A stretch of DNA of 64,000 nucleotides from Gari tellinella. Its lineage: Eukaryota > Mollusca > Bivalvia > Cardiida > Psammobiidae. Below the pieces are notes generated by a model. The model was not told the origin of the DNA and searched no databases. It was given only the letters and a program-made list of their open reading frames with translations. The translations under genes and the position numbers were made by a program. Shown piece after piece: positions 24,552 through 63,769 of the stretch. Each line of letters opens with the position of its first letter. The stretch's first letter is position 1. The stretch covers positions 21,262,291 to 21,326,290 of the forward strand of contig OV277868.1 of the NCBI GenBank assembly GCA_922989275.2. The letters are read 5' to 3'.

Positions 24552-24918
24552 CAATGTTCCCTCCCATCAACGGCCCTCCCAACAACGACCTATCCGTACC
24601 ACGACCCATTCTTACACCGACCCTTGCCACTGTTCCCAAAACAAGACATTTATTTCAAACCTTTTTTTGGCTGCAATACCGTCTCCTTAAATTTGTCGTT
24701 TGTTGATTTTTCTCAAAGTTTTGATAGGATAAATATCATGACGAGTGTAAAACAGCTTGAATCCAGATCAGACGCCGCGTTACGCGGCGTCTGATCTGGA
24801 ATTAAGCTATTTGTAAATGTAAGTCAAGTCTTAATTTTCCATCCCTTTACCGACTCCTTCCGAATAACGTACACACTCTGTGTCTCCCATAGGGTGTCGT
24901 TGTTGAGAGGGAGCACTA
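24552..24918 (+). mobile_element. MITE-C, both ends present
   Basis: CAATGTTCCCTCCCATCAAC at the left, GTCGTTGTTGAGAGGGAGCA at the right. The central hairpin at 24,753-24,812 is GAATCCAGATCAGACGCCGC and complement, with matched arms. Confidence 0.75.
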
Positions 24919-24957
24919 TAATATATATATTTCTGTGTATACATGTACTTTACATAT

Positions 24958-25080
24958 TGTTTACCCCTTTCGTTGCCTTACCTCGAGCACACATGTTAAT
25001 TACGTAACGAGGCGTCTGATTAGGATCAAAACTGTTTTACACTCAATTTTATATTCCGTGTACCTAAAAATTAACAATGC
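24958..25080 (-). mobile_element. MITE-B fragment
   Basis: GTTTACCCCTTTCGTTGCC, then GGCGTCTGATTAGGATCAAA and ACTGTTTTACACTC. Most of the left arm is missing. Confidence 0.5.
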
Positions 25081-25186
25081 CGACTTATAAAGTAGGGGAG
25101 GTAGTTAAAAACTCCAAATGAAAACAACTTAACAAGTTATACTTGATTATCCCCCTTGTACTAAAACTCGGTTTACCCTTTCAGAA

Positions 25187-25457
25187 GATTTGTTTTGATT
25201 TTACGTCGCTTTCAACAGTATTTCAGTCATATCGCGACGTCCAGCTAATTATAGGTGGAGGAAGACTCCAGAAGCCCTTTATGCACTGTTTCAGTCATAG
25301 ATCGGTAACTGGGTAGAACCATCGACCTTCCGCAAGCCAGCTGGAAGGCTTCCCCACATGAAAAATCCGAACGTCCCTACTGGGATTCGAACTCACAGCG
25401 GTGAGGAGCTTAGTGATGTAAGTCACAGTGATTATACCACTAGGCCACGGAGGCCCC
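25187..25457 (-). mobile_element. SINE-2, full length
   Basis: On the minus strand the head reads CCGTGGCCTAGTGGTATAAT (A box) and GAGTTCGAATCCCAGTAGG (B box). The body includes CTTCCTCCACCTATAATTAG and GCGACGTAAAATCAAAACAA. Body order resembles tRNA-derived SINEs widespread in molluscs. The 8,098 copy is a truncated relative. Confidence 0.8.
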
Positions 25458-25476
25458 CGCAGAATATATATCATGA

Positions 25477-25697
25477 GCGTTTACCCCTTCACCGCCATAC
25501 TGTTGTCTGCTTCAATATTGTTGTCTGCAATATTGTTTCATAGTTAGGTTTATGGCAGTAAAACTGACGTATTTTCTTAACAACTGGCAAACAGCGTCTG
25601 ATTGGGATTCAAGCTGTTTGCAAATGAAAGTCAAGCCTTAATTGTCCCTCCCTATATGTGTCTCCCATTAGGTGTCGTTGTAGAAAGGGGGCAATGT
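25477..25697. mobile_element. chimera of MITE-B left half and MITE-C right half
   Basis: The left part has the MITE-B blocks TTTACCCCTTCACCGCCAT, TTGTTGTCTGCAATATTG and GGCAGTAAAACTGACG. After a shortened hairpin (CAAACAGCGTCTGATTGGGA) the right part is MITE-C: GCAAATGAAAGTCAAGCC, CCCTCCCTAT, GTGTCGTTGTAGAAAGGGGG. The switch falls in the hairpin. Confidence 0.75.
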
Positions 25698-25729
25698 AGT
25701 TGTTGTTATAGTAGTACATGTAGTACATT

Positions 25730-26030
25730 TAGTTGTAATGGTAGTTGTAGTAATAATAACAGGAGCAGTACATAGTTGTAATGGTAGTTGTAGTAATAAT
25801 AACAGGAGCAGTACATAGTTGTAATGGTAGTTGTAGTAATAATAACAGGAGCAGTACATAGTTGTAATGGTAGTTGTAGTAATAATAACAGGAGCAGTAC
25901 ATAGTTGTAATGGTAGTTGTAGTAATAATAACAGGAGCAGTACATAGTTGTAATGGTAGTTGTAGTAATAATAACAGGAGCAGTACATAGTTGTAATGGT
26001 AGTTGTAGTAATAATAACAGGAGCAGTACA
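25730..26030. repeat. 43-bp minisatellite, 7 copies
   Basis: The unit begins TAGTTGTAATGGTAGTTGTA and ends AACAGGAGCAGTACA. Copies start at 25,730, 25,773, 25,816, 25,859, 25,902, 25,945 and 25,988 and are nearly identical. Long open frames on the minus strand are a by-product. Confidence 0.95.
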
Positions 26031-26073
26031 TGTAGCAGTAGAAGTTCTACATGTAGCACTAGTACTAGTAATA

Positions 26074-26319
26074 CAGTGGATAATGTGTTATTCTTTCCCG
26101 TCTAAACGCAAACGTACGCAAACGCAAACGGCTAAAACGTAGAAAAGAACAATTTTTGGACAATTTTGATATTTCATGTTTATCTTGGTGGCAAACAGTT
26201 TGGAGCCTGATCAGACGCCGGGTTACCCGGCGTCTGATCAGGCTCCAAACTGTTTGCACTGCAAATAATAGTTTTAGCGTAAACGCGTTTATTGGGAGAG
26301 AATAACACATTCTCCACTG
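26074..26319 (+). mobile_element. MITE-A, between two tandem arrays
   Basis: TA-CAGTGGATAATGTG to CATTCTCCACTG-TA. This copy has CTGATCAGGCTCC on the right arm, removing the usual arm mismatch. Confidence 0.93.
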
Positions 26320-26349
26320 TACATGTCACAGGATATAATCATCAGTAGC

Positions 26350-26446
26350 AGATGTTTTAGTAGAAGTAGTAGTGGTAGTTTTAGTGGTAGTAGTAGTAGT
26401 AGTAGTAGTAATAGTACATGTAGTAGTAATTGTAGTAGTGAATATG
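26350..26446. repeat. AGT/GTA microsatellite
   Basis: Imperfect GTAGTAGTAGT run following MITE-A. Confidence 0.8.
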
Positions 26447-26452
26447 TGTAGT

Positions 26453-26753
26453 ACAACGACCTTTACAGCAGTTCCCTAAACAGGACAATTATGTCCGACG
26501 CTTTTTCGGCTGCAATGTCGTCTGCTTTAAGTAGTCGTCTGCTGCTTTTCTTATAGTTACATGTTTTGACATTTTTACAGAAACTTACTTAATGACGGGT
26601 GACAAACAGCTTGATTCCAGATCAGACGCCGCGTCTGATCTGGATTCAAGCTGTTTGCAAATGTAAGCCAATTTCCCTCCCTATAAAGACTCCCTCTGAA
26701 CAACGCATACGCTTTTGGTCTCCCATTGGATGTCGCTGTAGAGAGGGGGTGCT
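26453..26753 (+). mobile_element. MITE-C, left end eroded
   Basis: TACAACGACC near the start and GTCGCTGTAGAGAGGGGGTG at the end. The hairpin (GATTCCAGATCAGACGCCGC) has a short tip. Confidence 0.7.
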
Positions 26754-27292: not shown

Positions 27293-27690
27293 TGGTACGA
27301 AAACGCATGTTATTTTTAAGTTCGAAACAGTATGAAGTGACATGATGACACAGCATGCAGAACCTGAAGGGATGAATATAATTACTAGCTACAACAACAA
27401 CAATATTGTGTCGATAATAATAAATGCGTTTGTTTTTTCACCTTAAAGAGAATATTTCAATTCTTTTTATTTGTTTAATATCGAATAAATTTGATTTACT
27501 TAGTGAAAGATTCTTGTGTTCAAAAGATGACAACGCTATGGGATAGCTATGATTTATTTATGTTAAAGTACAATTTTATTCACCGATATCGGTAAAATAT
27601 TCAACTGCAAGAGATTAAACGCTTGAAATGTTAAAGTTTCTTTTAAAAAATATATTTTTTAAGTAATACTCTGCGGGGAAATTTGAGCTA

Positions 27691-27927
27691 CAGTGGAGAA
27701 GACGTTCTTCTTTCCCAATGAACGCGTTTACGCTAAAACAAGAATCTCTGTTGCAAACAGTTTGGAGCCTGATCAGACGCCGGGTAACCCGGCGTCTGAT
27801 CAGGCTCCAAACTGTTTGCCACTCAGCTTAAAATGAGTAGCTATAATTGTCTTAAAACATATCATTTTCTACATTTAGTTGCAATGCGTTTGCATTTTAA
27901 CGGGAAAGAATAATGTCGTTTCCTCCG
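27691..27927 (-). mobile_element. MITE-A, right end eroded
   Basis: TA-CAGTGGAGAAGACG start. The hairpin arms match fully (CCTGATCAG and CTGATCAGG). The right end TTTCCTCCGTAACTG is diverged. Confidence 0.85.
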
Positions 27928-28110
27928 TAACTGATGCACATATTTAGGATAAGATCATAAGTAAACCGTAGTTTTATCCGGATCTAGACAGTTTGACAAC
28001 GATCGGATATTATGACTATATCTAAATGAAAAATGCAGACAAATTACTGTAACTTTGAAAATTGTTTCAGGTAAATTTGTACAACTTGTATTTTATTTGT
28101 ATGTTAATGG

Positions 28111-28373
28111 TTAAACTCTTTAATCATTTCACTCTCAATGATGCCTATAGGCGCGCTTGCAAACAGTTTGTGTACTGATGAGACGTCGCGCAACGCGGCG
28201 TCAGATCAGGACCCAAACTGTTTGACACTTTATCGATATTTGTAAGTCATGAAACCTTGAATCTAACTCTGAAACGTGTCTTGAAGACAACAATACTTAC
28301 ATAGACGATAATAAAGCGGTGAAGGGGTAAAACTCTCCCGAATGATTTGTTCATGAATGAGTTCAGTACTGCA
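28111..28373 (+). mobile_element. MITE-B, diverged
   Basis: TTTCACTCTCAATGATGCC at the left. Hairpin GTGTACTGATGAGACGTCGC and complement. AGACGATAATAAAGCGGTGA and AGGGGTAAAA at the right. Confidence 0.7.
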
Positions 28374-28472
28374 GTGATGCCATCTACTTTGCTTGTCGTT
28401 TGTTTTTATTTCTCAAATTTCTCAAATTTAACATTGAGATCAATTGAGTACAGCAAAAACGTACTACATGTA

Positions 28473-28718
28473 CAGTGGAGAATCTGTTATTCTTTCCCGT
28501 TTAAACGCAAACGTACGCAAACGCAAAGCACTAAAACGTAGAAAAGTACAACTTTTGGAAAATTCTGATAATTCTTGTTTATCTTGGTGGCAAACAGTTT
28601 GGAGCCTGATCAGACGCCGGGTAATCCGGCGTCTGATCTGGCTCTAAACTGTTTGCACTGCAAATAATAGTTTTAGCGTAAACGCGTTTATTGGGAAATA
28701 ATAACAGATTCTCCACTG
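28473..28718 (+). mobile_element. MITE-A, full length
   Basis: TA both sides. One substitution in the tip (GGGTAATCCGG). Confidence 0.95.
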
Positions 28719-28926
28719 TAACTATCTACGAATTTATGTTCTTATCAGACGCTGCATTATATTGCGTCTAAATTATGATCCAGACTGCAAACGACCATTC
28801 GGAATACGGCAGCGAAAAGGTTTCAAATGTAATTTGAAAAACGCAATATGTGACACTAAATGCGAAACCTCTTACAGCACAGGGTGAAGTCTACTTCACC
28901 CGCCTACGTGTATTTGAATTTGAATA

Positions 28927-29131
28927 CAGTCGAACTTCGATATCTCGAAGTCCGTTTTGTCGAACATACGTGTACATGTACCCGTATTTCAAAGTTAAAA
29001 CGTGGCTAAGCCACGTTTTAACTTTGAAATATGGGTATGTTCGATTTAACCGAGCATGAAAAAATACAGATCATATGTCGATCGATCGGATAGTTCGAGT
29101 TAAACGAGTTCGATATATCGAAGTTCGACTG
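28927..29131. mobile_element. MITE-F, intact
   Basis: TA-CAGTCGAACTTCGATATC and GATATATCGAAGTTCGACTG-TA are perfect inverted ends. The central foldback at about 28,985-29,035 has TTTCAAAGTTAAAACGTGGC facing its complement. Confidence 0.85.
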
Positions 29132-29562
29132 TACGTCAACTATTTATAATGAATGTAGGCCTACAGCATAATAAGATGATTCATGTTGTCTCAGCCGCAT
29201 TCCGTGAACCCATGTTGGTACCCGTAAGAACGTGTTATGTTGCATTAGGAATGAATTAAACCCTTTCCACGCCGTAACAGACTAGAAATGATTTCGGCTT
29301 ATCTCATTAGTTGCAAAAACGTGCATGGGATCAACACAACCGACCTGACTTCCTTTTAGTACACGTACTTTGCAGATGGGATAATCTCGGTCTACGAAAC
29401 AGAAACCTCCCATATGACCATTCAGCCCCAGATCCACGACAAGGTAGGAATGTCTTTGAGAACGACAGAACAGAACGTATTTTCTAGTTCTCTGAGTCAA
29501 CAGCGGAACAGACATTATTATTTCCCCGTTTAAAATAAACTCAAAACAAACAAAATGTAATA

Positions 29563-29795
29563 CAGTGGAGAATCTGTTATTCTTTCCCGTTTAAACGCAA
29601 ACGTACGCAAACGCAAAGCGCTAAAACGTAGAAAAGTACAACTTTTGGACAATTTTGATATTTCATGTTTATCTTGGTGGCAAACAGTTTGGAGCTTGTA
29701 ACCCGGCGTCTGATCTGGCTCCAAACTGTTTGCACTGGAAATAATAGTTTTAGCGTAAACGCGTTTATTGGGAAAGTATAACACATTCTCCACTG
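29563..29795 (+). mobile_element. MITE-A with half of the hairpin deleted
   Basis: Ends intact. The left arm from CTGATCAGACG to the tip is missing (GGAGCTTGTAACCCGGCG). Confidence 0.93.
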
Positions 29796-29837
29796 TAGCA
29801 CGTAGTAAGGTTTCTTGCTGTTAACTTCTACTTGAGC

Positions 29838-30036: not shown

Positions 30037-30244
30037 TTAACACTTTCACTCTCAATGACGTCATAAGGCGCATTTGCAAACAGTTTTGGTCCTGATCAGT
30101 CGCCGAGTCAGGGTCAAAACTGTTTGCCACTTGTATTGAAATTGCGTCAGTTATACTGCCTTAAACGTAGCTTTGAAACGATATTGCAGACAACAATATT
30201 GAAGGGGTAAAACCTCACGCTAAATTTGATCATGAAAGGGTTAA
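30037..30244 (+). mobile_element. MITE-B, TTAA on both sides
   Basis: TTAACACTTTCACTCTCAAT at the left and ATCATGAAAGGGTTAA at the right. The left hairpin arm and tip are shortened (GATCAGTCGCCGAGTCAGGG). It carries the internal ATATTGCAGACAACAATATT palindrome usual in the family. TTAA target suggests piggyBac-type mobilisation (inference). Confidence 0.85.
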
Positions 30245-30265
30245 AGCCTTCTTACAAGCCGCTTA

Positions 30266-30514
30266 CAGTGGAGAATCTGTTATTCTTTCCCAAAAACGCG
30301 TTTACGCTAAAACTATTATTTGCAGTGCAAACAGTTTGGAGCCAGATCAGACGCCGGGTAACCCGGCGTCTGATCAGGCTCCAAACTGTTTGCCACCCAT
30401 GCAGATAAACATGAATTATCAGAATTGTCCAAAAATTGTACTTTTCTACGTTTTAGTGTTTTGCGTTTGCGTACGTTTGCGTTTAAACGGGAAAGAATAA
30501 CAGATTCTCCACTG
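30266..30514 (-). mobile_element. MITE-A, full length
   Basis: TA both sides. ACCCATGCAGATAAAC replaces ACCAAGATAAAC after the hairpin. Confidence 0.93.
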
Positions 30515-30515
30515 T

Positions 30516-30708
30516 ATTTGCAGTGCAAACAGTTTGGAGCCAGATCAGACGCCGGGTAACCAGGCGTCTGATCAGGCTCCAAACTGTTTGCCACCAAGAT
30601 GAACAAGAATTATCAGAATTGTCCAAAAGTTGTTCTTTTCTACGTTTTAGTGTTTTGCGTTTGCGTACGTTTGCGTTTAAACGGGAAAGAATAACAGATT
30701 CTCCACTG
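30516..30708 (-). mobile_element. 5'-truncated MITE-A fused to the previous one
   Basis: Starts at TTTGCAGTGCAAACAG, internal to the family, directly after CTCCACTGTA of the previous copy, and ends normally. This looks like a tandem dimer made by unequal exchange. Confidence 0.85.
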
Positions 30709-31188: not shown

Positions 31189-31542
31189 CAGTGTTCGATC
31201 TATACAACAACAACTATGGGAATACAACGATTGGATGTGTTGTTCGGAGGGAGTCGTTATAGTGAGATAATATTAAGATGTGGCCTACATGTGCAAACAG
31301 CTTGAATCCAGATCAGACGCTGCGTCACGCGGCGTCTGATCAGGATTCAAGCTGCTTGTCACTCGTCATTATATTTATCACATCAAAATCTCCACTTATA
31401 TATGTAACTTTGAGACTAACAACAAAGGACACATTTAAACAGACGGTATTGCAGCCATGGAAAGGTTGGGGATACATTTGTGTTTGGGGAACAGCGACAG
31501 GGTTCGATTTACGGAGGAAGTCGTTGTTGGGAGGGAACACTG
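31189..31542 (-). mobile_element. MITE-C
   Basis: TA-CAGTGTTCGATC at the left and CGTTGTTGGGAGGGAACACTG-TA at the right (31,522-31,542). Hairpin GAATCCAGATCAGACGCTGC with matched complement at 31,298-31,360. Confidence 0.75.
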
Positions 31543-32820: not shown

Positions 32821-32827
32821 CAGATTA

Positions 32828-33073
32828 CAGTGGATAATCTGTTATTCTTTCCCGTTTAAACGCAAACGTACGCAAACGCAAAGCACTAAAACGTAGAAAA
32901 GAACAACGTTTGGACAATTCTGTTAATTCTTGTTTATCTTGGTGGCAAACAGTTCGGAGCCTGATCAGACGCCGGGTTACCCGGTGTCTGATCTGGCTCC
33001 AAACTGTTTGCACTGCAAATAATAGTTTTAGCGTAAACGCGTTTATTGGGAAAGAATAACACATTCTCCACTG
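32828..33073 (+). mobile_element. MITE-A, full length
   Basis: TA both sides. One tip mismatch (CCCGGTGTC). Confidence 0.95.
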
Positions 33074-33079
33074 TACATG

Positions 33080-33165: not shown

Positions 33166-33526
33166 GTTTTACATTCATATCAATGATTCCAGAGCCAAAA
33201 ACGTATTCCTAAAAGTGAAATCAGACAAAACATATAAGAAAACGATAATATAGCAGCGACTACGTTAGGGCAATATTTCCGTCGTACTTGCAGTGAAACG
33301 GATCAAACATGGTGAAAGAAACAAAGAAAGCTTCTGTATGAGATATAGTAGTACAGTAGTAGGGGCTATGTTCGTGGTAGAATATTTATTCGGCATCTGG
33401 TCTGGCTCCAAACTGTTTGCAAATGACTAAATGATTTGAGGGCAGGCACGTATTTTGGGAAATAATCTTCTTCATTGTAAGTAATAAATACATGCACCGT
33501 GCATGTATAATTCTTAAGTAATATAC

Positions 33527-33692
33527 ATGTGTCGAAAATCGATACCTCGAACTCGCTTAACTCGAAGTAGCCGATAGTTCGACACATGAACTGCATTATT
33601 TCATGCTCGGTTAGGTCGATTTTACCCATATATCAAAGTTAAAACGTGGGTTTGTTCGATTTAACCGAGTTCGAGATATCGAAGTTCGACTG
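33527..33692. mobile_element. MITE-F, left part rearranged
   Basis: The right end GAGATATCGAAGTTCGACTG-TA is intact. CAAAGTTAAAACGTGGG is half of the central foldback. Confidence 0.65.
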
Positions 33693-33934
33693 TATGTTGT
33701 TGTTAATAGGTCTTGAAGTCTCTGCATGTAAGCCATATTTGGTGAGCTTTCTCTTCAGCCGGCAGGGTCTAATTGCATAGTCTAAAGTGACTGTTTTCGA
33801 GCATCAGAGGATGATTCCTTAAGAGAAATTTAGAAGTTGTTATTGTGCTAGATTGCTATTTTATTCCTATATGTAAAATTGGTTTCCAGTTTAAGTTAGT
33901 CTTAATACGCATGTATAGGTATAGGTAATATATA

Positions 33935-34867: not shown

Positions 34868-35114
34868 TTAACCCTTTCACTCTCAATGACGCCATAAAGC
34901 GCATTTGAAAACAGTTTTGATCCTGATCAGACGCCGCGTAACGCGACGTCCGATCAGGAACAAAACTGTTTGCCACATGTTTTGAAATTACGTGAGCCAT
35001 ATTGTCTTAAATTTAACTTTGAAACGATATTGCAGACAACAATGTTGAAGTAGACGACAACATGGCGGTGAAGGAGTGAACATCTCACGATGAATTAAAT
35101 CATGAAAGTGTTAA
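34868..35114 (+). mobile_element. MITE-B, TTAA on both sides
   Basis: TTAACCCTTTCACTCTCAAT to CATGAAAGTGTTAA. Hairpin TGATCCTGATCAGACGCCGC and complement, with one tip change. Confidence 0.88.
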
Positions 35115-35158
35115 GGCAGATGTCAACTCACAAAGACAGAAATTACCTAGATTTCTTA

Positions 35159-35404
35159 CAGTGGAGAATCTGTTATACTTTCCCGTGTAAACGCAAACGT
35201 ACGCAAACGCAAAGCACTAAAACGTAGAAAAGAACAACTTTTGGACAATTCTGATAATTCTTGTTTATCTTGGTGGCAAACAGTTTGGAGCCTGATCAGA
35301 CGCCGGAATACCCGGCTTCTGATCTGGCTCCAAACTGTTTGCACTGTAAATAATAGTTTTAGCGTAAACGCGTTTATTGGGAAAGAATAACGCTTTCTCC
35401 ACTG
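35159..35404 (+). mobile_element. MITE-A, full length
   Basis: TA both sides. The tip is altered to CCGGAATACCCGGC. Confidence 0.94.
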
Positions 35405-35540
35405 TACCTAGATTTCTTATCTAGTCGTTTTTGTATCTTATTGTAAAACAATCAATCAACAAACATATGATTTGTGAGCAAAGTTCCAGTTTCTAAAGGG
35501 GAGAAGTCAATATTTATTCTTGTCTGAGTAGCTATATATA

Positions 35541-35752
35541 CAGTGGAGAGAACGTTTTTCTTTCCCAATAATCGCGTTTACGATCAAACTATTATTTCCA
35601 TTGCAAACGGTTTGGAGCCAGATCAGACGCCGGGTGACTATTTTTTACTCAGATTAACATGAATTGTCAGAATCGTCGAACGGTTTTTTCTACGTTTTAG
35701 TGTTTGCGTTTCGTTTGCGTTTAAACGGGAAATAATAACGTTTTCTCCACTG
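35541..35752 (-). mobile_element. MITE-A with right hairpin arm deleted
   Basis: Ends intact. GACGCCGGGTGAC runs straight into TTTTTACTCAG. Confidence 0.9.
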
Positions 35753-35759
35753 TAACAAT

Positions 35760-35853: not shown

Positions 35854-36099
35854 TGAACTCTTTCACTATCATTTTTCCTGAGATTTTTACCCCTCAACCG
35901 TTTCATTGAGGTCTGGTTAAATTTTGTTGCCTGCAATGTCGTTTCAAAGTTTAAAAACAAGGCAGTATGACTTAAGACATTTCAAAACGTGTGTCAAATA
36001 GTTTGGATCCTGACCAGACGCCGCGTTACGCGTCGTCTGATCAGGATCCAAAATGCTTGCAATCGCGCTTTTAAGCGTCATTGAGAGTGAAAGCGTTAA
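35854..36099 (-). mobile_element. MITE-B
   Basis: AACTCTTTCACTATCATTTT to TGAGAGTGAAAGCGTTAA. Hairpin GGATCCTGACCAGACGCCGC with near-full pairing. Confidence 0.8.
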
Positions 36100-37190: not shown

Positions 37191-37223
37191 TACATATAAT
37201 AGCTACACAGTGACTTGATGTTA

Positions 37224-37469
37224 CAGTGGAGAATGTGTTATTCTTTCCCAATAAACGCGTTTACGCTAAAACTATTATTTCCATTGCAAACAGTTTGGAG
37301 CCAGATCAGACGCCGGGTAACCCGGCGTCTGATCAGGCTCCAAACTGTTTGCCACCAAGATAAACATGAACAATCAGAATTGTCCAAAAGTTGTTCTTTT
37401 CTACGTTTTAGCGCTTTGCGTTTGCGTACGTTTGCGTTTAAACGGGAAAGAATAACAGATTCTCCACTG
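37224..37469 (-). mobile_element. MITE-A, full length
   Basis: TA at the left and TA at the right. Hairpin intact. Confidence 0.95.
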
Positions 37470-37722
37470 TAGCTGCATACGGCGCCACAGTGCATTCATT
37501 TCCATATCTCACGCATATTAATCTATTGAAATAGCAATATTAGCAAAATTGTTGCTATGCCATTTCTGTTGCTAAATGGGCGTGAATGCATTTTACACTA
37601 TTTCAGGTGCATCGGCATGCCTTTAAAATGTGACTTGAATGAAAAGAATAGCATCATTAACAAATTGACTACTAAATTCAGGGTATTGGATGATATGTAT
37701 ATATCATGCGCAGATCTTGCTA

Positions 37723-38490: not shown

Positions 38491-38778
38491 GAGAACAAAG
38501 AGCCACCCGATAAGTTGCATCGGGACGGTCAGATATTCAGATCTGATTTGTTTGAAGTGGAGTAACTCCTCAATAATTTTACACATTTAGTTTGCTTTAT
38601 GTTTCGTTTTAAACTGGATCAACTATTCTAAGCCAAAAAAGAAAGTACCAACCTTTGTATTCTTAATTATTAGCGTCTCATACATAACCTGTCTTTAACT
38701 TTAGTTTTAGAGAAAATGGCATGAAATCATTGTGGCTAAATAAATGGCACATTGCAGTGAAACTAAAAGGTACATGTA

Positions 38779-41781: not shown

Positions 41782-41875
41782 TATTAAACAACTTCATGTA
41801 TTTATCTGTTATCAACTAGCTTATAGACCGAAAATATTGTTTAACTAGTGTCCGGTTTAGAGAGGTTCCATTATA

Positions 41876-50679: not shown

Positions 50680-51530
50680 TATTAGGAGTAGGTAGTGGTA
50701 GTATTAGGAGTAGTGTTAGGAGTAGGTAGTGGTAGTGTTAGGAGTAGGTAGTGGTAGTATTAGGAGTAGTGTTAGGAGTAGGTAGTGGTAGTATTAGGAG
50801 TAGTGATAGGAGTAGGTAGTGGTAGTATTAGGAGTAGTGTCAGGAGTAGGTAGTGGTAGTATTAGGAGTAGTGTTAGGAGTAGGTAGTGGTAGTATTAGG
50901 AGTAGTGTTAGGAGTAGGCAGTGGTACTATTAGGAGTAGGTAGTGGTAGTATTAGGAGTAGTGTTAGGAGTAGGTAGTGGTAGTTTTAGGAGTAGTGTTA
51001 GGAGTAGGTAGTGGTAGTATTAGGAGTAGTGTTAGGAGTAGGTAGTGGTAGTATTAGGAGTAGGTAGTGGTAGGGGTAGGTAGAGTAGTGTTAGGAGTAG
51101 GTAGTGGTAGGGGTAGGTAGAGTATGGTTAGGACTAGGTAGTATTAGGGGTAGGTAGAGTAGTGTTAGGAGTGGTGGTGGTACAGTGGAGAAAACCTTAT
51201 TCTTTCCCAATAAACGCGTTTACGCTAAAACTATTATTTGCAGTGCAAACAGTTTGGAGCCAGATCAGACGCCGGGTAACCCGGCGTCTGATCAGGCTCC
51301 AAACTGTTTGCCACCAAGATAAACAAGAATTATCAGAATTGTCCAAAAGTTGTTCTTTTCTACGTTTTAGTGCTTTGCGTTTGCGTACGTTTGCGTTTAA
51401 ACGGGGAAGAATAACAGATTCTCCACTGTATTAGGGTAGGGAGTGGTAGTATTATGGATAGGTAGAGCAGTGTTAGGAGTAGGTAGTGGTAGTGTTAGGA
51501 GTAAGGGTAGTATGAGGGTATGGAATTAAT
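50680..51530. repeat. 34-bp minisatellite interrupted by MITE-A
   Basis: Units such as GGAGTAGGTAGTGGTAGTAT and TAGGAGTAGTGTTA repeat with variants up to 51,180, then again at 51,429-51,520. The array is bounded by a MITE-A half on the left. Confidence 0.9.
51183..51428 (-). mobile_element. MITE-A inserted in the minisatellite
   Basis: TA both sides, with GGTGGTGG before and TTAGGGTAGGG after. Confidence 0.96.
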
Positions 51531-52417: not shown

Positions 52418-52427
52418 GTCTAAAATA

Positions 52428-52660
52428 CAGTAGAGAAAACGTTATCCTTCTGTTTAAAGGCAAACGCATTGCAATGAAATATAGAAAATGACAATTTTTT
52501 GACAATTCTGACTTCCAGTTTTGATCTGAGTGGCAAACAGTTTGGAGCAAGATTAGATGCCGGGTTTCCCGGCGTCTGATCTGGCTCTAAAATGTTTGCA
52601 ATGAAAATGATAGTTTAAGCGTACACGCGGTTAGTTTGAAAGAATACGAATTATCTACTG
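52428..52660 (+). mobile_element. MITE-A, diverged
   Basis: TA-CAGTAGAGAAAACG to TTATCTACTG-TA. The left arm is damaged (GGAGCAAGATTAGATGCCGG). Confidence 0.82.
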
Positions 52661-52821
52661 TACTCTGCACGCTGCATACGGGGCACACATTGCTAACATA
52701 AACAGCAAACAGTGGTAACTGAACACGCTACTATACCTGAGCTAGGTAGCTCTACATGCCTTCATTGCGTGTTACGTATCCTTACATACTAGTCTTGGAT
52801 AGAATAAAACATTTGTGCAGA

Positions 52822-54105: not shown

Positions 54106-54647
54106 CACTCAGTACAAAAAGAAACGCACATTTTGTATCACAATCTTATTTTTATGTAGAAGGAACGTATTTGTGAATTATTATCAAATCATTATTGAAT
54201 TGGTAGCATCCCAACCTGCACTAATCGGTGCGGTATTTTAAACAAGCTGTAGTTAATTCTTTCGCTGCCAAATTAATCGTGAGGTTTATACCCCTTCACC
54301 ATATTATTGCCATCTGCTTCAATTTTGTTGTTTTCAAGATCGTTTCTAAGTAAAATTCAATGTAGAATGACTTAAATGAAATCGATAAGAGTGTCAAACA
54401 GTTTGGATCCTGATCAGACGCCGCGTTACGCGGCGTCTGATCAGGATCCAAACTGTTTGCAAACGCTTTTTGGCGTCATTAGGAGGGACATGGTTAAAAG
54501 GCAACACAGTGTTTTTTGAGTATTTTTCTGAACTTGTTGCAGAATTAAATAAATCTTGAGATATGGTCTTTCTTTTCTATTTTTCCTCAAAAAAATGTAT
54601 CCTAATCTGCGCCTGAGCATAATGTGCGTTTCTTTTTGCACTGAGTG
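54106..54647. mobile_element. element N, TA target, interrupted by MITE-B
   Basis: TA-CACTCAGTACAAAAAGAAA and its inverse TTTCTTTTTGCACTGAGTG-TA. The ends look mariner-like. The interior is short apart from the MITE-B inserted at 54,253. Confidence 0.75.
54253..54497 (-). mobile_element. MITE-B, TTAA on both sides
   Basis: TTAATTCTTTCGCTGCCAAA to GGAGGGACATGGTTAA. The hairpin is perfectly paired at about 54,398-54,463 (GGATCCTGATCAGACGCCGC and complement). Confidence 0.88.
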
Positions 54648-54777
54648 TATACCACATTACCAACATTTTGTTAACTCATTCAACCCTGAAACGTTGAATG
54701 GACAATTCCAACTTCCAATAAGTCTAGTCCATTTTTTAATTTAAACGGTTGATTTTAACAATATATTTCAAAATGAA

Positions 54778-54843
54778 AAACAGTATAGAGCCTGATCAGA
54801 GGGCTCCTTAAGGAACCCTCTGATCAGTGTCTACACTGTTTGC
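54778..54843. repeat. family J hairpin
   Basis: CAGTATAGAGCCTGATCAGA, GGGCTCCTTAAGGAACCC, TCTGATCAGTGTCTACACTG. The GATCAGAGGG core matches 13,498. Confidence 0.8.
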
Positions 54844-54947
54844 ATGGGACAAGTGTACTCTTGAAAGTTACACTGTTCGTTAATGACGATTATACTCGTC
54901 TCTAATGATGAATGTTTTAAGTACAGCCAATATTGTTATGCAGCGTA

Positions 54948-55193
54948 CAGAGGAGAATCTGTTATTCTGTCCTGTTTAAACGCAAACGTACGTAAACGCA
55001 AAGCACTAAAACGTAGAAAAGAACAACGTTTGGACAATTCTGATAATTCTTGTTTATCTTGGTGGCAAACAGTTTGGAGCCTGATCAGACGCCGGGTTAC
55101 CCGGCGTCTGATCTGGCTCCAAACTGTTTCCACTGTAAATACTAGTTTTAGCGTAAACGCGTTTATTGGGAAAGAATAACAGATTCTCCACTG
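54948..55193 (+). mobile_element. MITE-A, full length
   Basis: TA-CAGAGGAGAATCTG to TTCTCCACTG-TA. Uses TGTCCTGTTTAAACGC. Confidence 0.94.
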
Positions 55194-55770
55194 TATGTCA
55201 TTAATGAGCAGGAACAAAAAGTACTTTTGGTGTTCCGATTTTAGTCAAACATGCATTAGGTGTATAGGAACACCAAAACATCAATAGGCAGTATTTGATA
55301 TATGAGGTTGCTTAACAAGTTCTGTAACTTTCTATAGTTTTCTTTTGAAAAAGCACTATTGTGTAAAAGAATATGGTTTTAAGTTAAAACGTTTCTAAAT
55401 TCTAGTTATTTGTCCCATTTTTTATCATAGAGCCAGTTCTGTGGAAAAAGTAAATTATTTTTTCATTTATGTGCTAAAGTCGCATAGCAACACAGATTCT
55501 GGTTCTAACAGTAGATAATACTTTATCTCGTGTATTAAATAATAAGCACTCGTGTAAGATGCTCTATTTTAACTGCGTGTGCATTGTCTGTGTTTGTGAA
55601 TTGCAAACATCACAATCGTGTTTGAACGAGAAAAATCTTTTAGCTGTTCTTTTCATAAAGAGCCCGCCAAAATTGCTTTAGTCTCAAAATGTATATGAGC
55701 CCTGGCATTTCAAAACTTGCCTTATTGCATTGCAAACAGTGTAGATCAGACGCGACAGCTCGCCTTGGTA

Positions 55771-56016
55771 CAGTGGAGAATCTGTTATTCTTTCCCAATA
55801 AACGCGTTTACGCTAAAACTATTATTTGCAGTGCAAACAGTTTGGAGCCAGATCAGACGCCGGGTAACCCGGCATCTGATCTGGCTCCAAATTGTTTGCC
55901 ACCAAGATAAACAAGAATTATCAGAATTGTGCAAAAGTTGTTCTTGTCTACGTTTTAGTGCTTTGCGTTTGCGTACGTTTGCGTTTAAACGGGAAAGAAT
56001 AACAGATTCTCCACTG
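55771..56016 (-). mobile_element. MITE-A in family J
   Basis: TA both sides. The right TA is shared with element K. Confidence 0.95.
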
Positions 56017-56018
56017 TA

Positions 56019-56906: not shown

Positions 56907-57125
56907 TATACTCTGTTCGACACCCACACTAATCTAAAGCATTGCATTTAGCTGTACTATTTACGGTATTTGGCAATGAGCGCCAAACTCAGATACAGAG
57001 CCTGGGGTTATAATGGTGCTTGGTCTGTACAATTTTGCACTGCAATAAGGCAAGTCTGTCTTGGCAAGAATCATATGTTGTTTGTACCGGATGTCAGGGA
57101 AAACTTTGTTACAAACTCGCCTATA

Positions 57126-57377
57126 CAGTGGAGAATCTGTTATTCTTTCCTGTTTAAACGCAAACGTACATGTACGCAAGCGCAAAACACTAAAACGTAG
57201 AAAAGAACAACTTTTTGACAATTCTGATAATTCATCTTTATCTGGGTGGCAAACAGTTTGGAGCCTGATCAGACGCCGGGTTACCCGGCGTCTGATCTGG
57301 CTCCAAACTGTTTGCACTGCAAATAATAGTTTTAGCGTAAACGCGTTTATTGGGAAAGAATAACGTTTTCTCCACTG
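57126..57377 (+). mobile_element. MITE-A with 16-bp flanking repeat
   Basis: Ends intact. TACAAACTCGCCTATA occurs directly on both sides, longer than the usual TA. Confidence 0.95.
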
Positions 57378-57389
57378 TACAAACTCGCC

Positions 57390-58176: not shown

Positions 58177-58409
58177 TGGATTTTGGCAACTCCGTCAGTT
58201 TTTTCCGCTGAATGAGTATATTCTGTGTTTGTTCAAGTGTGTAAAGTAATATACAGTCGCAACTGTTTTATGCGGCCTTATATGATTTGGATGGTAGAAT
58301 GCCCTTTAAGCATACGAGTAGCAACAAAATTCAAGAAACAACTGTGATGCAGAAACCTCTTTAATTTCTGCTATACGTACATGTAATTTCTTATTTTAAT
58401 ACCTTTATA

Positions 58410-58655
58410 CAGTGGAGAATCTGTTATTCTTTCCCGTTTAAACGCAAACGTACGCAAACGCAAAGCACTAAAACGAAGAAAAGAACAACTTTTGGACAAT
58501 TTTGATATTTCATGTTTATCTTGGTGGCAAACAGTTTGGAGCCTGATCAGACGCCGGGTTACCCGGCGTCTGATCTGGCTCCAAACTGTTTGCACTGCAA
58601 ATAATAGTTTTAGCGTAAACGCGTTTATTGGGAAAGAATAACAGATTCTCCACTG
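58410..58655 (+). mobile_element. MITE-A, full length
   Basis: TA both sides. Close to the family consensus. Confidence 0.96.
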
Positions 58656-58670
58656 TACCATGCATTACAT

Positions 58671-58924
58671 GTAACCCTTTCACCCTCAAAGACGTCAAAA
58701 GGCGCAATTGCAAATTGTTTGAATCCCAATCATACGCCGCGTAACGCGGCGTCTGGTCAGAATCAAAACTATTTGACACTTGTATCGAAATGTCGCAGTC
58801 ATACTGCCTTAAATCTAACTTTAAACCGATATTGCAGACAACATAAATGTTGCAGACGACAAATAAAACGATGAAGGGGGTATATGTAAAAGCCTCACGA
58901 GTAATTAGTTAGCAGGGAAAATGT
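58671..58924 (+). mobile_element. MITE-B, diverged
   Basis: TAACCCTTTCACCCTCAAAG start. Hairpin GAATCCCAATCATACGCCGC with a better preserved right arm. AGGGGGTATATG near the end. Confidence 0.7.
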
Positions 58925-59245: not shown

Positions 59246-59589
59246 GCTACATGTACAATAGAGACTGCTTCACAGTTGCGGTCTACATTTGAAATTAATT
59301 AATTTTAAGCAATTTTTTTTTGTAATAAAAGCATTCACATGAGGGTCAATCGGTTTAGGAATCAGATAGTGATACCATATAAGGCGTTTGATATTGGCCA
59401 CAAGTGTTTGCATCGTTTTGTAGACTCTCGACTGACAGCTAAAGGGTTAAGTGATATCATCATTAATGTATTTAAGAAAGAAGTTTGAGAAAAATATATT
59501 CGTGATATTTAATCTTCAAAAGTTACATTAACTATTTCAGATCTTTGTGAACTCAGTCGGAACGAGTCAAGTGTTTATTTTGTAATATA

Positions 59590-59835
59590 CAGTGGAGAAT
59601 CTGTTATTCTGTCCCGTTTAAACGCAAACGTACGCAAACGCAAAACACTAAAACGTAGAAAAGAACAACTTTTGGACAATTCTGATATTTCATGTTTATC
59701 TTGGTGGCAAACAGTTTGGAGCCTGATCAGACGCCGGGTTACCCGGCGTCTGATCTGGCTCCAAACTGTTTGCAATGGAAATAATAGTTTTAGCGTAAAC
59801 GCGTTTATTGGGAAAGAATAACAGATTCTCCACTG
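59590..59835 (+). mobile_element. MITE-A, full length
   Basis: TA both sides. Its right TA (59,836-59,837) is the left TA of the next copy. Confidence 0.95.
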
Positions 59836-59837
59836 TA

Positions 59838-60087
59838 CAGTGAAGATGATGTTATTTATTACCATTAAACGTGTTAATGCTGAAACCGTTTTAAGCATTG
59901 CAAACACTTTGGAGCCAGATAAGACACCGGACAGCTTGACGTCAGATTTTCTCCTAACAGTTTGTCACCGCGATCAAAAATATATAATTACTTAATTAAA
60001 TTTTCAAAAATCTGTACTTTTCTACATTTTATTGAAATTCGTTTATATTTTATTTGCGTTTAAATGTCTGAGAAATATTCTCCACTG
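59838..60087 (-). mobile_element. MITE-A, diverged, adjacent
   Basis: CAGTGAAGATGATGTTATTT to ATATTCTCCACTG. Hairpin largely lost (GGAGCCAGATAAGACACCGG only). Confidence 0.75.
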
Positions 60088-60108
60088 TCCATGACCTTTT
60101 GATAGTTG

Positions 60109-60355
60109 TTATCCTTTTCACTACCAAATGTATCGTGAGATGTTTACCCCTTCACCGTTTCATTGTCGTCTATTTCTATTTTGTTATCTACAATGTCATT
60201 TCTAAGTTAAACAATAAGGCAGTATGACTAAAGACATTTTAAATTGAGTGTCAAACAGTTTAGGTCCTGATCAGACGCCGCTTTATGTGGCGTCTGATCA
60301 GGATCCAAACTGTTTGCAGTCGCCCTTTTAAGCGTCATTGAGAGTGAAAGAGTTA
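60109..60355 (-). mobile_element. MITE-B
   Basis: TTATCCTTTTCACTACCAAA to TTGAGAGTGAAAGAGTTAA. Hairpin GGTCCTGATCAGACGCCGC with tip TTTATGTGG. Confidence 0.85.
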
Positions 60356-60761
60356 ACAGCGTCATAGGCGAGTACAGTAAACTTTGTAAACAGGTACATG
60401 TATGATGCAAATCCGGATTCGATATGTTCGATATGATACACTAATCGATATTTATACTAATAAACTGTCTTGAATCTAAGTTTAAGGAGTTTTTTAGACA
60501 AGTGAAGAAGACTCATATAGGTTGAAGTTTTTTCTTAGAATAAATTATTATTTAACTAAGACAAGTGGCGTAAAATAAGTAAATCACCAAACAAATATTG
60601 CAGCTTTCTGCTTGATGTACATGTACATTGTACATGTATGTCTTAGATAAAAAAAAAAGACTTTACAAAAGAGATTCTTAATGCGACTTTATAAAAAACA
60701 CGTTTGACTTTAACATGTCTATGTATATCCATGTTATGCTCTGTCGTTTATATTGGTAATA

Positions 60762-61007
60762 CAGTGGAGAAAACGTTATTCTTTCCCAATAAACGCGTGT
60801 ACGCTAAAACTATTATTTCCAGTGCCAACAGTTTGGAGCCAGATCAGACGCCGGGTAACCCGGCGTCTGATCAGGCTCCAAACTGTTTGCCACCAAGATA
60901 AACATGAAACATCAGAATTGTCCAAATATTGTTCTTTTCTACGTTTTAGTGCTTTGCGTTTGCGTACGTTTGCGTTTAAACGGGAAAGAATAACAGATTC
61001 TCAACTG
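60762..61007 (-). mobile_element. MITE-A, full length
   Basis: TA both sides. The right end is TCTCAACTG instead of TCTCCACTG. Confidence 0.95.
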
Positions 61008-61204
61008 TACGTGTGCATTTTAATGCACTATGACCCTTGCAGAATACACCATTCTTTCATATTTAAAACAACACTTACACGTATAAGGTATTACACTTTT
61101 GAAAATTACGGTTCCTTCAAAAGGTTGACGACGTATTCTTATCTTAGTGACAAATTGTTTTGAGTCTAATCATATGCTGAATAAATTTATTCCACGTCTG
61201 ATCT

Positions 61205-61355: not shown

Positions 61356-61392
61356 GCCAGAGATGGCACACTTTTCATCTGCGTAGATTATA

Positions 61393-61638
61393 CAGTGGAG
61401 AAAACGTTATTCTTTCCCAATAAACGCGTTTACGCTAAAACTATTGTTTGCAGTGCAAACAGTTTGGAGCCAGATCAGACGCCGGGTAACCCGGCGTCTG
61501 ATCAGGCTCGAAACTGTTTGCCACCAAGATAAACAAGAATTATCAGAATTGTCCAAAAGTTGTTCTTTTCTACGTTTTAGTGCTTTGCGTTTGCGTACGT
61601 TTGCGTTTAAACGGGAAAGAATAACAGATTCTCCACTG
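61393..61638 (-). mobile_element. MITE-A, full length
   Basis: TA both sides. One arm substitution (GGCTCGAAAC). Confidence 0.96.
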
Positions 61639-61869
61639 TACATGTATGTAAACGATGTGTTGTAATCTGAATAATCTTAATATTCGCCCCATTCACATCC
61701 TTTAAAAAATGACGTTTAAACAACAGGAACGCAATTCATAGAATTTGCCGATCATTTTGTGTCGTTTATTATGCTTAAACATCAAAAAGATTCAGTTCAT
61801 TTCTTAATTAAATATTTTGGAGCTTGACCAGTTGCCACTGTAATGACGAAAAGTATCCCCCTCTAAAAA

Positions 61870-61974
61870 GTGACACAGGAGGTCGTTTTCGACGTAGAAA
61901 GCTGATATTAATCAAGCCTTTTATTACGTTATGACCAGGGAGGTCAACTTTCTGCGTCGAAAAATGTCACGGGG
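61870..61974. repeat. small inverted repeat
   Basis: TTTTCGACGTAGAAAGCTGA faces TCAACTTTCTGCGTCGAAAA about 45 bp apart. Confidence 0.55.
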
Positions 61975-62085
61975 TCGCAATTGTGAGGAGGAGGGACACA
62001 TTTCGTAATTACACCGGATTTCAAATGTACATGTACCCGGATTCTTATCTGGCTCCTACATGTACCTGTAACTGTACTACATGTA

Positions 62086-62425
62086 CAGTGCTCCCTCTCT
62101 ACAACGGCCCTCCCAACAACGACTCCCTCCTTACAACGACGCTTGCCATTCTTCCCCCAAACAAGACAATTATGTCAACCCATTCACGGATGCAATGTCG
62201 TCTGCTTAAAATTGTCGTCTGCTGTTTTTCTCATTTTCTCATTTTGACAGAAATGATGAGTGACAAACAGCTTGAATCCAGACCAGATGCCGCGTTACGG
62301 GGCGTCTGGGTTGGATTCAAGCTGTTTGCAAATGTAAGCCAGTTTCCCTCCCTATAACGACTCCTTCCGAACAATACACACAATGTTTATCTCCCACGGG
62401 GTGTCGTTGTAGAGAGGGAGCGCTT
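62086..62425 (+). mobile_element. MITE-C, best copy
   Basis: TA-CAGTGCTCCCTCTCTACAA at the left, TTGTAGAGAGGGAGCGCTT-TA at the right. Second block CTCCCTCCTTACAACGAC. Hairpin GAATCCAGACCAGATGCCGC with imperfect right arm. It shares TTGTCGTCTGCT with MITE-B. Confidence 0.85.
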
Positions 62426-62455
62426 TATTCCATTCACCTCTCCGTGATCTGGTTA

Positions 62456-62700
62456 CAGTGGAGAATCTGTTATTCTTTCCCGTTTAACGAAACGAAACGC
62501 AAACGCAAAACACTAAAACGTAGAAAAGAACAACTTTTGGACAATTCCGATAATTCATGTTTATCTTGGTGGCAAACAGTTTGGAGCCTGATCAGTCGCC
62601 GGGTTACCCAGCGTCTCATCTGGCTCCAAACTGCTTGCAATAGAAATAATAGTTTTAGCATAAACGTGTTTATTGGGAAAGAATAACGTTTTCTCCGCTG
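62456..62700 (+). mobile_element. MITE-A, full length
   Basis: TA-CAGTGGAGAATCTG to TTCTCCGCTG-TA. Left block is GTTTAACGAAACGAAACGC. Confidence 0.93.
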
Positions 62701-62736
62701 TATGAACCCCCTCTAATAGTCTCATGAGGTACAGCC

Positions 62737-62985
62737 TTAACCTTCAGCACCAATATGTGTAAACTGCTTCAACCTCGTACCAACTTGCTGCATGTATTTC
62801 GCCTGTTTAAAACAAATTCTAAATATTATTCCCAAGAAAGATTCAAAGCGGTTTCACCGAAGAAATATCAACACGATTGTCAAACAGTTTGGACCCTGAT
62901 CAGACGCCGCGTAACGCGGCGTCTGATCAGAATCCAAACTGTTTTCAAAATCGAATTTAGTCGCTAATGGTGATGAAAGGGGTAA
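62737..62985 (-). mobile_element. MITE-B
   Basis: TTAACCTTCAGCACCAATAT start. Hairpin GGACCCTGATCAGACGCCGC and complement. GGTGATGAAAGGGGTAAAC at the right. Confidence 0.75.
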
Positions 62986-63149
62986 ACTTGTTTAATAGTT
63001 TTTATGACTTTATCAAATATGATCTGTTACTAAAACCTACCGCGCCCATTTACTAAGGTTAATCATTGGAAAATATTATCCATGAAGAAAAAAGTCATAA
63101 AATTAAATCACTGAAATAATCAAATTGCTTTCAAAGTAGTATAGATCTA

Positions 63150-63364
63150 CGGTGGAGAATACACCATTCTTTTCAAATAAAAATTAGCTTTGTTGCAAAA
63201 AGATGTGAGCCAGACAAAATGCCTGGTAAGTTGACGGCAGGTCAGACTCTAAACTGTTTGCCACTTGGATAAAAACTAATCGTTAGACCATTATAACAAG
63301 CTGTGCTTTTCTAGATTTAAGTGAAGTGCTTTAATTTAGATTTGAAATGTCATTGTCTCCCGTG
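63150..63364 (-). mobile_element. decayed MITE-A
   Basis: CGGTGGAGAATACACCATTC start, GTGAGCCAGACAAAATGCC, TCTAAACTGTTTGCCACTTG, end TGTCTCCCGTG-TA. Confidence 0.65.
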
Positions 63365-63385
63365 TATTTTCTAAATCAATAGATT

Positions 63386-63522
63386 TAACCCTTTCACTAC
63401 AAACATTTTCGTGAGTTTTTTACCCCTTCACCGTTTCAGTATTGCCTGCTCCAATTTTGTTGTCTGCAATGCCGTTTCAAGTAAAATATAAAATAATTTG
63501 GCTATAGACTTTGAATCTTATA
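63386..63522 (-). mobile_element. MITE-B left part, interrupted by MITE-A
   Basis: TTTAACCCTTTCACTACAAA, TTTTACCCCTTCACCGTTTC, TTGTTGTCTGCAATGCC. MITE-A follows, and GAATACAAACTGTGTGC at 63,772 may be the continuation. Confidence 0.65.
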
Positions 63523-63769
63523 CAGTGGAGAAAACGTTATTTTTTCCCAATAAACGCGTTTACGCTAAAACTATTATTTGCCGTGCAAACAGTTTGGAGT
63601 CAGATAAGACGCCGGGTGACCCGGCGTCTGATCAGGCTCCAAACTGTTTGCCACCAAGATAAACAAGAATTATCAGAATTGTCCAAAAGTTGTTCTTTTC
63701 TACGTTTTTAGTGCTTTGCGTTTGCGTACGTTTGCGTTTAAACGGGAAAGAATAACAGATTCTCCACTG
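63523..63769 (-). mobile_element. MITE-A, full length
   Basis: TA both sides. One extra T in TACGTTTTTAGTG. Confidence 0.96.

Follow-up and report, generated by a model that had tools for sequence, protein, structure and literature searches.

A 67-nt hairpin core at the centre of transposable element families with different ends in the bivalve Gari tellinella

The hairpin core and the ends of the families that carry it

In an earlier note on a 64-kb stretch of the genome of the bivalve Gari tellinella (contig OV277868.1, positions 21,262,291 to 21,326,290; hereafter the window), it was proposed that one hairpin sits in the middle of several otherwise unrelated families of miniature inverted-repeat transposable elements (MITEs). 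We analysed the window together with the genome it belongs to (1.598 Gb, 80 contigs). Besides animal-type fragments (a fibrinogen C domain, a DDE_Tnp_4 protein and a YqaJ plus PHD protein), the window holds 88 hairpins detected with an iterated profile (E<=1e-3). Hairpins are indeed present between positions 24753 and 63660, as noted, but this range was too narrow, since copies are spread through the entire window, and the scale is much larger than had been recognized. The word GATCAGACGCC has 115 matches in the window with at most 1 mismatch (0.30 expected) and CAAACAGTTTGGA has 176 with at most 2 mismatches (3.5 expected); these counts, far above chance, bear out a centre common to MITE-A, MITE-B and MITE-C. 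Across the genome, the 12-base core word GATCAGACGCCG occurs 273,870 + 273,607 = 547,477 times, compared with 1 + 2 for the reversed control. A sample of 20 stretches of 10 kb from 14 contigs contained 136 hairpins at >=20 bits, or one per 1.47 kb, which by extrapolation from these 200 kb gives about 1.1 million copies genome-wide; the window, with 86 at the same threshold, is richer than the genome average. A scan of IMG/VR, a collection that says little about an animal genome, returned 0 matches to the hairpin.

The core forms a near-perfect palindrome of 67 nt, in which two arms of 33 bases flank a single centre base; family J, MITE-G and the divergent hairpin h03 have longer centres. The A and B hairpins are identical at 61/67 positions, and the A consensus retains one A.A mismatch. 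Tips vary by family as previously described (CCGGGTAACCCGG in A, CGCGTAACGCG in B and C), and the GATCAGAGG form was found again in G (46374-46611) and J (h14 and h70). Folded as DNA, one copy each of A, B and G reached -40 to -42 kcal/mol (z -14 to -17), and one C and one J copy -29 and -26 kcal/mol (z -11 and -10), forming a 33-bp stem with a loop of 3-8 nt. Once oriented by its flanks, the hairpin starts on its right side with CACT or a near variant in most families, while the left side is family-specific. The left arms of family J (e.g. 13450-13497) carry a smaller second inverted repeat, CAAACAGTGTAC...GTACACTTG, ahead of the main hairpin.

Different ends surround this one centre, as the earlier note had stated. 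MITE-A measures 250 bp including its TA duplication and ends in TA + CAGTGGAGAA, both ends being located in 36 of the 53 A-type window copies; MITE-C (about 360 bp) ends in TA + CAGTGCTCCC. The group inserted at TTAA comprises B, H02, K, M and J. MITE-B spans about 245 bp with TTAA and ends in TTAA + CCCTTTCA, H02 in TTAA + CCCCTTCACTGCC and K in TTAA + CCCTTAGCCTGCC; J, whose description is corrected here, is a TTAA element with CYCTTTGAACCC ends starting CTC or CCC. Other sampled copies, read by eye, start TTAACCC, and the core is present in more TTAA families than the note had named. The single G copy of the window has GGGGCCCG ends. The designation MITE agrees with the short length (about 200-360 bp), the high copy number (136 hairpins in 200 kb), the terminal inverted repeats and the fixed target duplication (TA in A and C; TTAA in B, K, H02 and J).

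Tc1/mariner-type MITEs have a TA duplication and CAGT ends. A and C resemble them in their TA duplication and CAGT start, and C differs by the TTAA-type core that it contains. B, H02, K, M and J share the TTAA duplication and pyrimidine CC starts of piggyBac-type elements, and thus resemble piggyBac-type non-autonomous elements in TTAA insertion and CC...GG ends. Kolobok elements, according to the accessible part of PMC9587614, also duplicate TTAA and have 5'-RR...YY-3' termini; the TTAA hairpin families end in YY...RR and were therefore filed as piggyBac-type.

Relationships outside the hairpin were assessed with arm profiles against column-shuffled controls (40 shuffles each; K profiles from 4 copies, M from 2). 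Outward arms and profiles replaced the clustering of flanks in one graph, which had joined nearly everything because the elements abut. The right arm proved common to B, B2, H02, K, M and C, with z from 4.9 (K-M) to 34, whereas the left arms of these groups are unmatched (z -1.6 to 3.6) except for B-B2 (5.0) and K-M (13.9). Arms of 60 nt are too short for the B-C homology, which lies further out. The B and H02 consensus hairpins are identical (67/67); their right arms agree at 59/88 aligned positions, barely above shuffled alignments, and are homologous by profile (z 13.5). B and C are therefore not unrelated, as had been supposed: they have homologous right arms beyond the hairpin. For the arms of A and J, no convincing match was obtained.

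Older ends are nested within the present ones. The right end of H02 is GCAGTGAAGGGGTTAA, and, by eye, 8/10 aligned B and B2 copies have an H02-like end, GGTGAAGGGGTAAAA or near, about 35 bases inside the B right end. Both B and C retain an end of H02 type within their present ends, either as GTGAAGGGGTTAA or decayed. Within C it reads GTGAATGGGTTGA in the copy h83, and the consensus of 22 copies has the decayed form GTGAAAGCGTTGGA; several C2 copies have TTAA on the other side. The C arm used in one B-C comparison has the end of h83, which biases that comparison towards the older end. B and C thus acquired their present ends on the outside of an older TTAA element. It is the ends, rather than the hairpin, that appear to have been exchanged, and the sequences of at least two families indicate that element ends were replaced while the hairpin was kept. 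In A, the inner terminal half TTATTCTTTCCC could be a remnant of a J-like TTAACTCTTTCC end, a likeness that is only suggestive. Two positions just inside the terminal 12 bases at each A end differ between the old and young consensus, with unchanged neighbours. Equal variable triplets at both A ends were considered and rejected (19/30, with 18.0 expected).

Constraint on the hairpin and its loss

To follow pairing, 21 window hairpins hand-picked from all groups were aligned. Changes on both sides occurred in 20/33 pairs, and the covariation score was 0.265, compared with 0.107 for shuffled and <=0.080 for slid versions; 0/500 shuffles, which ignore the relatedness of copies, reached any of five covariation measures. 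Between consensus hairpins, 3 (B-C), 4 (B-K) and 7 (B-J) pairs are compensated, with 0 other changed pairs in each, and A-B shows 2 compensated and 1 not. Compared singly with B, G has 9 compensated pairs and 1 other, and h03 has 6 and 2. The covariance of the arms, which the earlier note had proposed as a check, was thus found, above both shuffled and slid controls.

Copies found by the hairpin itself overstate its conservation relative to the flanks, and estimates from them were replaced by estimates from A elements picked by the right arm alone (86, of which 27 old and 59 young). Between the old and young A consensus, 0/67 hairpin positions and 0/24 positions of the terminal 12s differ, against 20/159 in the rest (p=0.0013). 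This contrast points to constraint on the source copies of A, and together with the compensatory changes it supports the suggestion that the hairpin is kept for its structure. In 18 right-arm-chosen elements with arm divergence of 0.25-0.36, mean divergence was 0.30 in the arm and 0.18 in the hairpin. B and C show constraint in the same direction, as judged from copies found by the hairpin itself. When 60 A, B and C copies were compared with their family consensus, 180 single changes dominated, as expected of dead copies, and 12 double changes kept Watson-Crick pairs (about 2 expected), some of them perhaps shared by descent.

Loss of the hairpin was surveyed in 288 kb, comprising the window and additional loci, 24 kb of which had been chosen for the core word. 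No A arm lacked a trace of the hairpin (0/55 left, 0/63 right). Among J, C, B and K arms, those without a nearby hairpin numbered 1/13, 3/20, 2/21, 1/22, 1/23 and 0/4, and the 8 exceptions, from J, C and B, were read by eye as remnants, truncations or interruptions. Genome-wide, A copies were counted through exact 12- and 14-base words of the inner arms, between which an intact hairpin leaves 69 bases: 49,043 copies have 55-80 bases there, 1,667 have 25-54 and 403 have <=24. About 4% of countable A copies have thus lost part or all of the hairpin through deletions covering the tip. Among about 100 hairpin-less matches listed, out of the 403, most have one of three junctions that recur where the two arms contain short repeats, and almost all retain, by eye, hairpin remnants at such repeats and represent deletion scars. 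The copy at C1:103792250 has 4 bases alone between the arm words and is readable either as a deletion or as an empty site.

Partial deletions were studied among 100 matches listed, all from one contig, of which 11 fitted a single deletion poorly and were dropped. The remaining 89 comprise 58 distinct deletions, 50 spanning the tip and 39 ending <=3 bases from it (25.1 +- 4.2 for random placement); all 89 either span the tip or end within 3 nt of it, where random deletions of these lengths would leave the tip untouched in about 17% of cases. In 85 A elements, 7/26 deletions end within 4 bases of the tip (2.4 expected, p=0.011), and in 25/36 profile-found partial hairpins the break falls at model positions 30-38. 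Independent losses of the hairpin have thus occurred again and again, and copies that lost it are few; counts alone cannot separate recent loss from failure to multiply.

Origin of the shared core

Taken together, our results favour, with a probability of roughly 0.55, the view that a hairpin core of old age persisted in source copies and acquired new ends by nesting outward. The hairpin would represent what has been conserved within a single old lineage of non-autonomous DNA transposons, a core consisting of the palindrome plus, in several families, the homologous right arm. New families would arise by gaining ends outside the old ones, and C would thereby have passed from TTAA to TA insertion; judging by their ends, most families except A and C are probably moved by piggyBac-type transposases. 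Source copies would retain the sequence and pairing of the hairpin, while inserted copies decay. The hairpin would confer a benefit at the DNA level, independently of the transposase that moves the element. Our preferred guess is an extruded cruciform that works as a hinge, so that an element of 200-360 bp can bring its ends together, which would account for both the transposase independence and the need for pairing. We also put forward, tentatively, that the hairpin may be a transposase-independent cis module under selection, whose carriers out-multiply losers whatever the transposase, so that the core, having used TTAA-type and TA-type ends successively, would have outlasted both and reached about a million copies.

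Several observations weigh against this account. The A-B arms give z of -1.3 and 3.1 with young A and 0.1 and 1.2 with old A, and the J-B arms -0.8 and 1.4; since the arms of A and J thus lack convincing homology to the B group, it is the hairpin that would tie these two families to it by descent. (The higher values with young A, namely A-J right 4.5, A-C right 3.7 and A-B left 3.1, become 0.6, -1.1 and 1.2 with old A.) A change of ends is only presumed for A. In C, the older end is clear in h83 and in the TTAA of several C2 copies, but decayed in the consensus, and no C-outer element without the core was met, an observation with no genome-wide count behind it. The hairpin also decays more slowly than the rest after insertion, at 0.122 versus 0.187-0.226 elsewhere in old A copies and 0.021 versus 0.031-0.064 in young ones, which is not predicted by selection on source copies alone; arm-templated repair would fit this slower decay in dead copies. 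Conversely, in the old copy h78 the hairpin has diverged to the same extent as the arms. Finally, a hinge leaves the sequence conservation of CAAACAG and GATCAG without account.

Such repair, in the form of quasi-palindrome correction without any selection, might by itself keep the palindrome, and it would be helped by the excess of Watson-Crick double changes inside copies as well as by the slow hairpin decay. Templating equalises the arms, not the sequence, yet the sequence is unchanged between old and young A and between B and H02; one-sided changes persist throughout the 60 copies, and the A consensus keeps its mismatch. Repair as the sole cause therefore seems doubtful. An action of the hairpin as RNA, e.g. 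as a small-RNA precursor or silencing decoy, is unlikely: the 33-bp stem and the DNA folds of the five copies would suit it and microRNA genes have reportedly been derived from transposons (PMC3086885), but typical animal microRNA precursors are unlike a near-perfect stem with so small a loop, and Rfam, at gathering thresholds, gave no match in the window. It is quite unlikely that one lineage simply drifted apart at its ends, with no end replacement. The hairpin changes so slowly that arms would saturate meanwhile, and the TTAA families have CCC- or CTC-type starts in common; the older ends inside B and C, the insertion of C at TA and the left arms that differ where right arms match all speak for replacement.

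The earlier note had considered a hairpin that is itself mobile or exchangeable, and the 61/67 identity of A and B hairpins on unrelated arms, the element h25, which passes from a C-type left half through the hairpin into a B-type right half, and the A copy with just 4 bases between its arm words could be taken in this sense. A small module that jumped into, or swaps between, unrelated MITEs is nevertheless the most improbable of the explanations weighed here. All A arms surveyed keep a trace of the hairpin, the exceptions in J, C and B are remnants, truncations or interruptions, and nearly all listed hairpin-less A copies hold remnants at short repeats. CACT and, in six groups, the entire right arm belong to the shared unit. 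Moreover, 121 of 245 hairpins were close to full length and could be assigned to a family. With old A pooled with A, and B2 and H02 pooled with B, the nearest hairpin belonged to the same group in 119/121, compared with an average of 33% for shuffled labels; no ongoing exchange is therefore seen, and the sharing is old. Hairpin and flanks thus agree within families, the outcome that the note had named as pointing to one lineage with diverged ends, but the change of ends still stands, given the older ends inside B and C.

Possible transposase partners of the TTAA families were sought among 86 piggyBac transposase matches in the genome, many of them without stops, and the flanks of four loci were read. 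At C10:11266487 and C18:41905595 a common end starting TTAACCCTTACAA lies near the transposase, and at C1:44790294 TTAACCCTTTCGGCGCC occurs nearby, the end being TTAACCCTTTCGG. Three loci thus have TTAACCCTTA or TTAACCCTTT ends near the transposase; the TTAACCC site of the fourth is part of a hairpin MITE. A second transposon end was not found at any of the loci with ends, and no hairpin occurs inside the three ends in the stretches read. The MITEs agree with these transposase ends over about the first 10 bases only, which sets them apart from the piggyBac-type loci of this genome. That the piggyBac flanks lack the hairpin was considered and rejected, as the profile finds hairpin MITEs or their remnants in three of the four flank sets. 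Beside one transposase (locus L029, 644-845) lies a complete TTAACCC...GGGTTAA element, whose ends are of the TTAACCCTTTTGATGCTGG type and whose hairpin has decayed, and a K element lies beside the piggyBac locus L036. At L033 (840-960), a J half-hairpin breaks off at the TTAA of its centre, and a piggyBac-type end starts at precisely this point, as if a transposon had inserted into the hairpin tip.

Hairpin-centred MITEs have precedents in molluscs. The accessible text of PMC4732748 describes, in the haemoglobin genes of Lucina pectinata, a MITE-like 'consensus sequence 1' of 210 bp, with a 30-bp imperfect terminal inverted repeat and, at its centre, 77 bp that are self-complementary (96%). 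It also describes a second repeat, which contains a self-complementary segment of 68 bp and has a short stretch in common with the first, and similar fragments (>80%) in other molluscs. A hairpin-centred mollusc MITE was therefore already known. The likeness, a central palindrome in a clam MITE, is one of description, and that text identifies no target duplication and describes neither hairpin constraint nor a change of ends. Pearl-family MITEs of bivalves are likewise modular, with a conserved palindrome near the repeat junction in DTC84; in the part of PMC5139131 available they differ by satellite-like tandem repeats, and no 67-nt central hairpin is described. MITEs occupy a considerable share of bivalve genomes and are left unclassified, as far as the available part of PMC10294476 goes. 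A text search, in which sequence letters are not searchable and subscription literature is thinly covered, found no published account of one hairpin core under different MITE ends. MITE families are usually classed by their ends, the inside being treated as filler. In these elements no part is more conserved than the inside, and it has outlived its ends, to which the older ends nested in B and C testify, so that classing by ends alone can hide common descent. Our data suggest that the hairpin matters for how such elements spread. If it confers a general advantage, it would allow direct experiments on what makes certain MITEs so extremely numerous.

Element copies and neighbouring sequences in the window

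Positions of hairpin-bearing elements in the window; the 88 hairpins include further copies. Element ends are approximate for the B, B2 and J rows and for h15.
Element	Positions	Strand	Remarks
MITE-A	225-476	-	hairpin 344-410
MITE-A	3741-3989	+	hairpin 3805-3870
old MITE-A	4976-5177	+	right hairpin arm lost from tip
MITE-A	8423-8672	+	hairpin 8487-8553
old MITE-A	8671-8896	+	centre of hairpin deleted (8736-8775)
MITE-A	10509-10758	-	abuts, at the tip, B-type half-hairpin 10757-10790 (B left arm 10790-10828)
MITE-A	20829-21073	-	
MITE-A	21783-22038	-	
old MITE-A	22657-22906	-	arm divergence 21-23%, hairpin 3/67
old MITE-A	23442-23654	+	left hairpin arm deleted nearly to tip
MITE-A	26072-26321	-	hairpin 26191-26257
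old MITE-A	27689-27940 (right end approximate)	+	hairpin 27753-27819 changed 1/67; arms differ 26-32%
MITE-A	28471-28720	-	
MITE-A	29561-29797	-	deletion beside hairpin tip
MITE-A	30264-30516	+	
MITE-A	32826-33075	-	
MITE-A	35157-35406	-	
MITE-A	35539-35754	+	right hairpin arm lost from tip
MITE-A	37222-37471	+	consensus hairpin 37286-37352
MITE-A	38777-39046	-	
MITE-A	40047-40306	+	
MITE-A	41874-42123	-	
MITE-A	43383-43587	-	one hairpin arm missing at tip
MITE-A	43747-43996	-	
MITE-A	51181-51430	+	
old MITE-A	52426-52662	-	
MITE-A	54946-55195	-	
MITE-A	55769-56018	+	
MITE-A	57124-57379	-	
MITE-A	58408-58657	-	
MITE-A	59588-59837	-	
old MITE-A	59836-60089	+	hairpin divergence 16/66, equal to arms
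MITE-A	60760-61009	+	
MITE-A	61391-61640	+	
MITE-A	62454-62702	-	
old MITE-A	63148-63366	+	
MITE-A	63521-63771	+	
MITE-B (TTAA)	28120-28365	+	hairpin 28159-28225
MITE-B	30037-30243	+	
MITE-B	34868-35113	+	older end within right end
MITE-B	35856-36098	-	
MITE-B	39582-39826	-	
MITE-B2	49540-49783	+	left arm diverged; hairpin 5/67 from B
MITE-B2	49851-50112	+	
MITE-B	54258-54500	-	consensus hairpin 54394-54460
MITE-B	58672-58910	+	
MITE-B	60112-60355	-	
MITE-C (TA composite around TTAA-type core)	24553-24917	-	hairpin 24748-24814
MITE-C	26452-26753	-	hairpin tip deleted
MITE-C	31189-31540	+	
MITE-C	41460-41779	-	
MITE-C	62087-62424	-	
h25 (C-type left half, B-type right half)	25466-25695	-	one hairpin arm lost
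family J (TTAA)	13420-13670	+	hairpin 13498-13565
family J	54670-54920	-	hairpin 54776-54843
MITE-G (GGGGCCCG ends)	46374-46611	-	hairpin 46461-46531
h15 (old TTAA-type element)	16172-16373	+	hairpin 16213-16279
H02-type half-hairpin and divergent hairpin h03	863-1065		back to back; half-hairpin 895-928, h03 995-1065

An insertion of the MITE-A copy at 10509-10758 inside the B hairpin that it abuts was rejected, the other B half being absent on the far side. At 41103-41548, the right outer end of C is repeated four times with a spacing of 119 bp, the last copy being part of the C element at 41460-41779. The B-type end of h25 is abutted by a tRNA-like sequence (25360-25460), possibly a short interspersed nuclear element, in which ARAGORN found no tRNA gene, and a tandem repeat with a unit like TTGTAATGGTAGTTGTAGTAATAATAACAGGAGCAGTACATAG occupies 25700-26030 between two MITEs.

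A different repeat with CAGTCGAACTTCGATATC-like ends is present at 28924-29132 and 33520-33700. As its first copy has an unrelated central palindrome of its own (about 28982-29037), hairpin-centred MITEs may be a recurring design in this genome. The protein-coding fragments of the window include a 475-amino-acid open frame (13815-15242, + strand) that matches YqaJ exonuclease and PHD-finger, and an open frame (17661-18719, - strand) that matches DDE_Tnp_4 and HTH_Tnp_4. Among the named relatives of the DDE_Tnp_4 protein, those ranked first belong to Lingula, a brachiopod (64%), to a bryozoan (62%) and to a pearl oyster (55%); relatives in fishes, corals and ticks rank lower.

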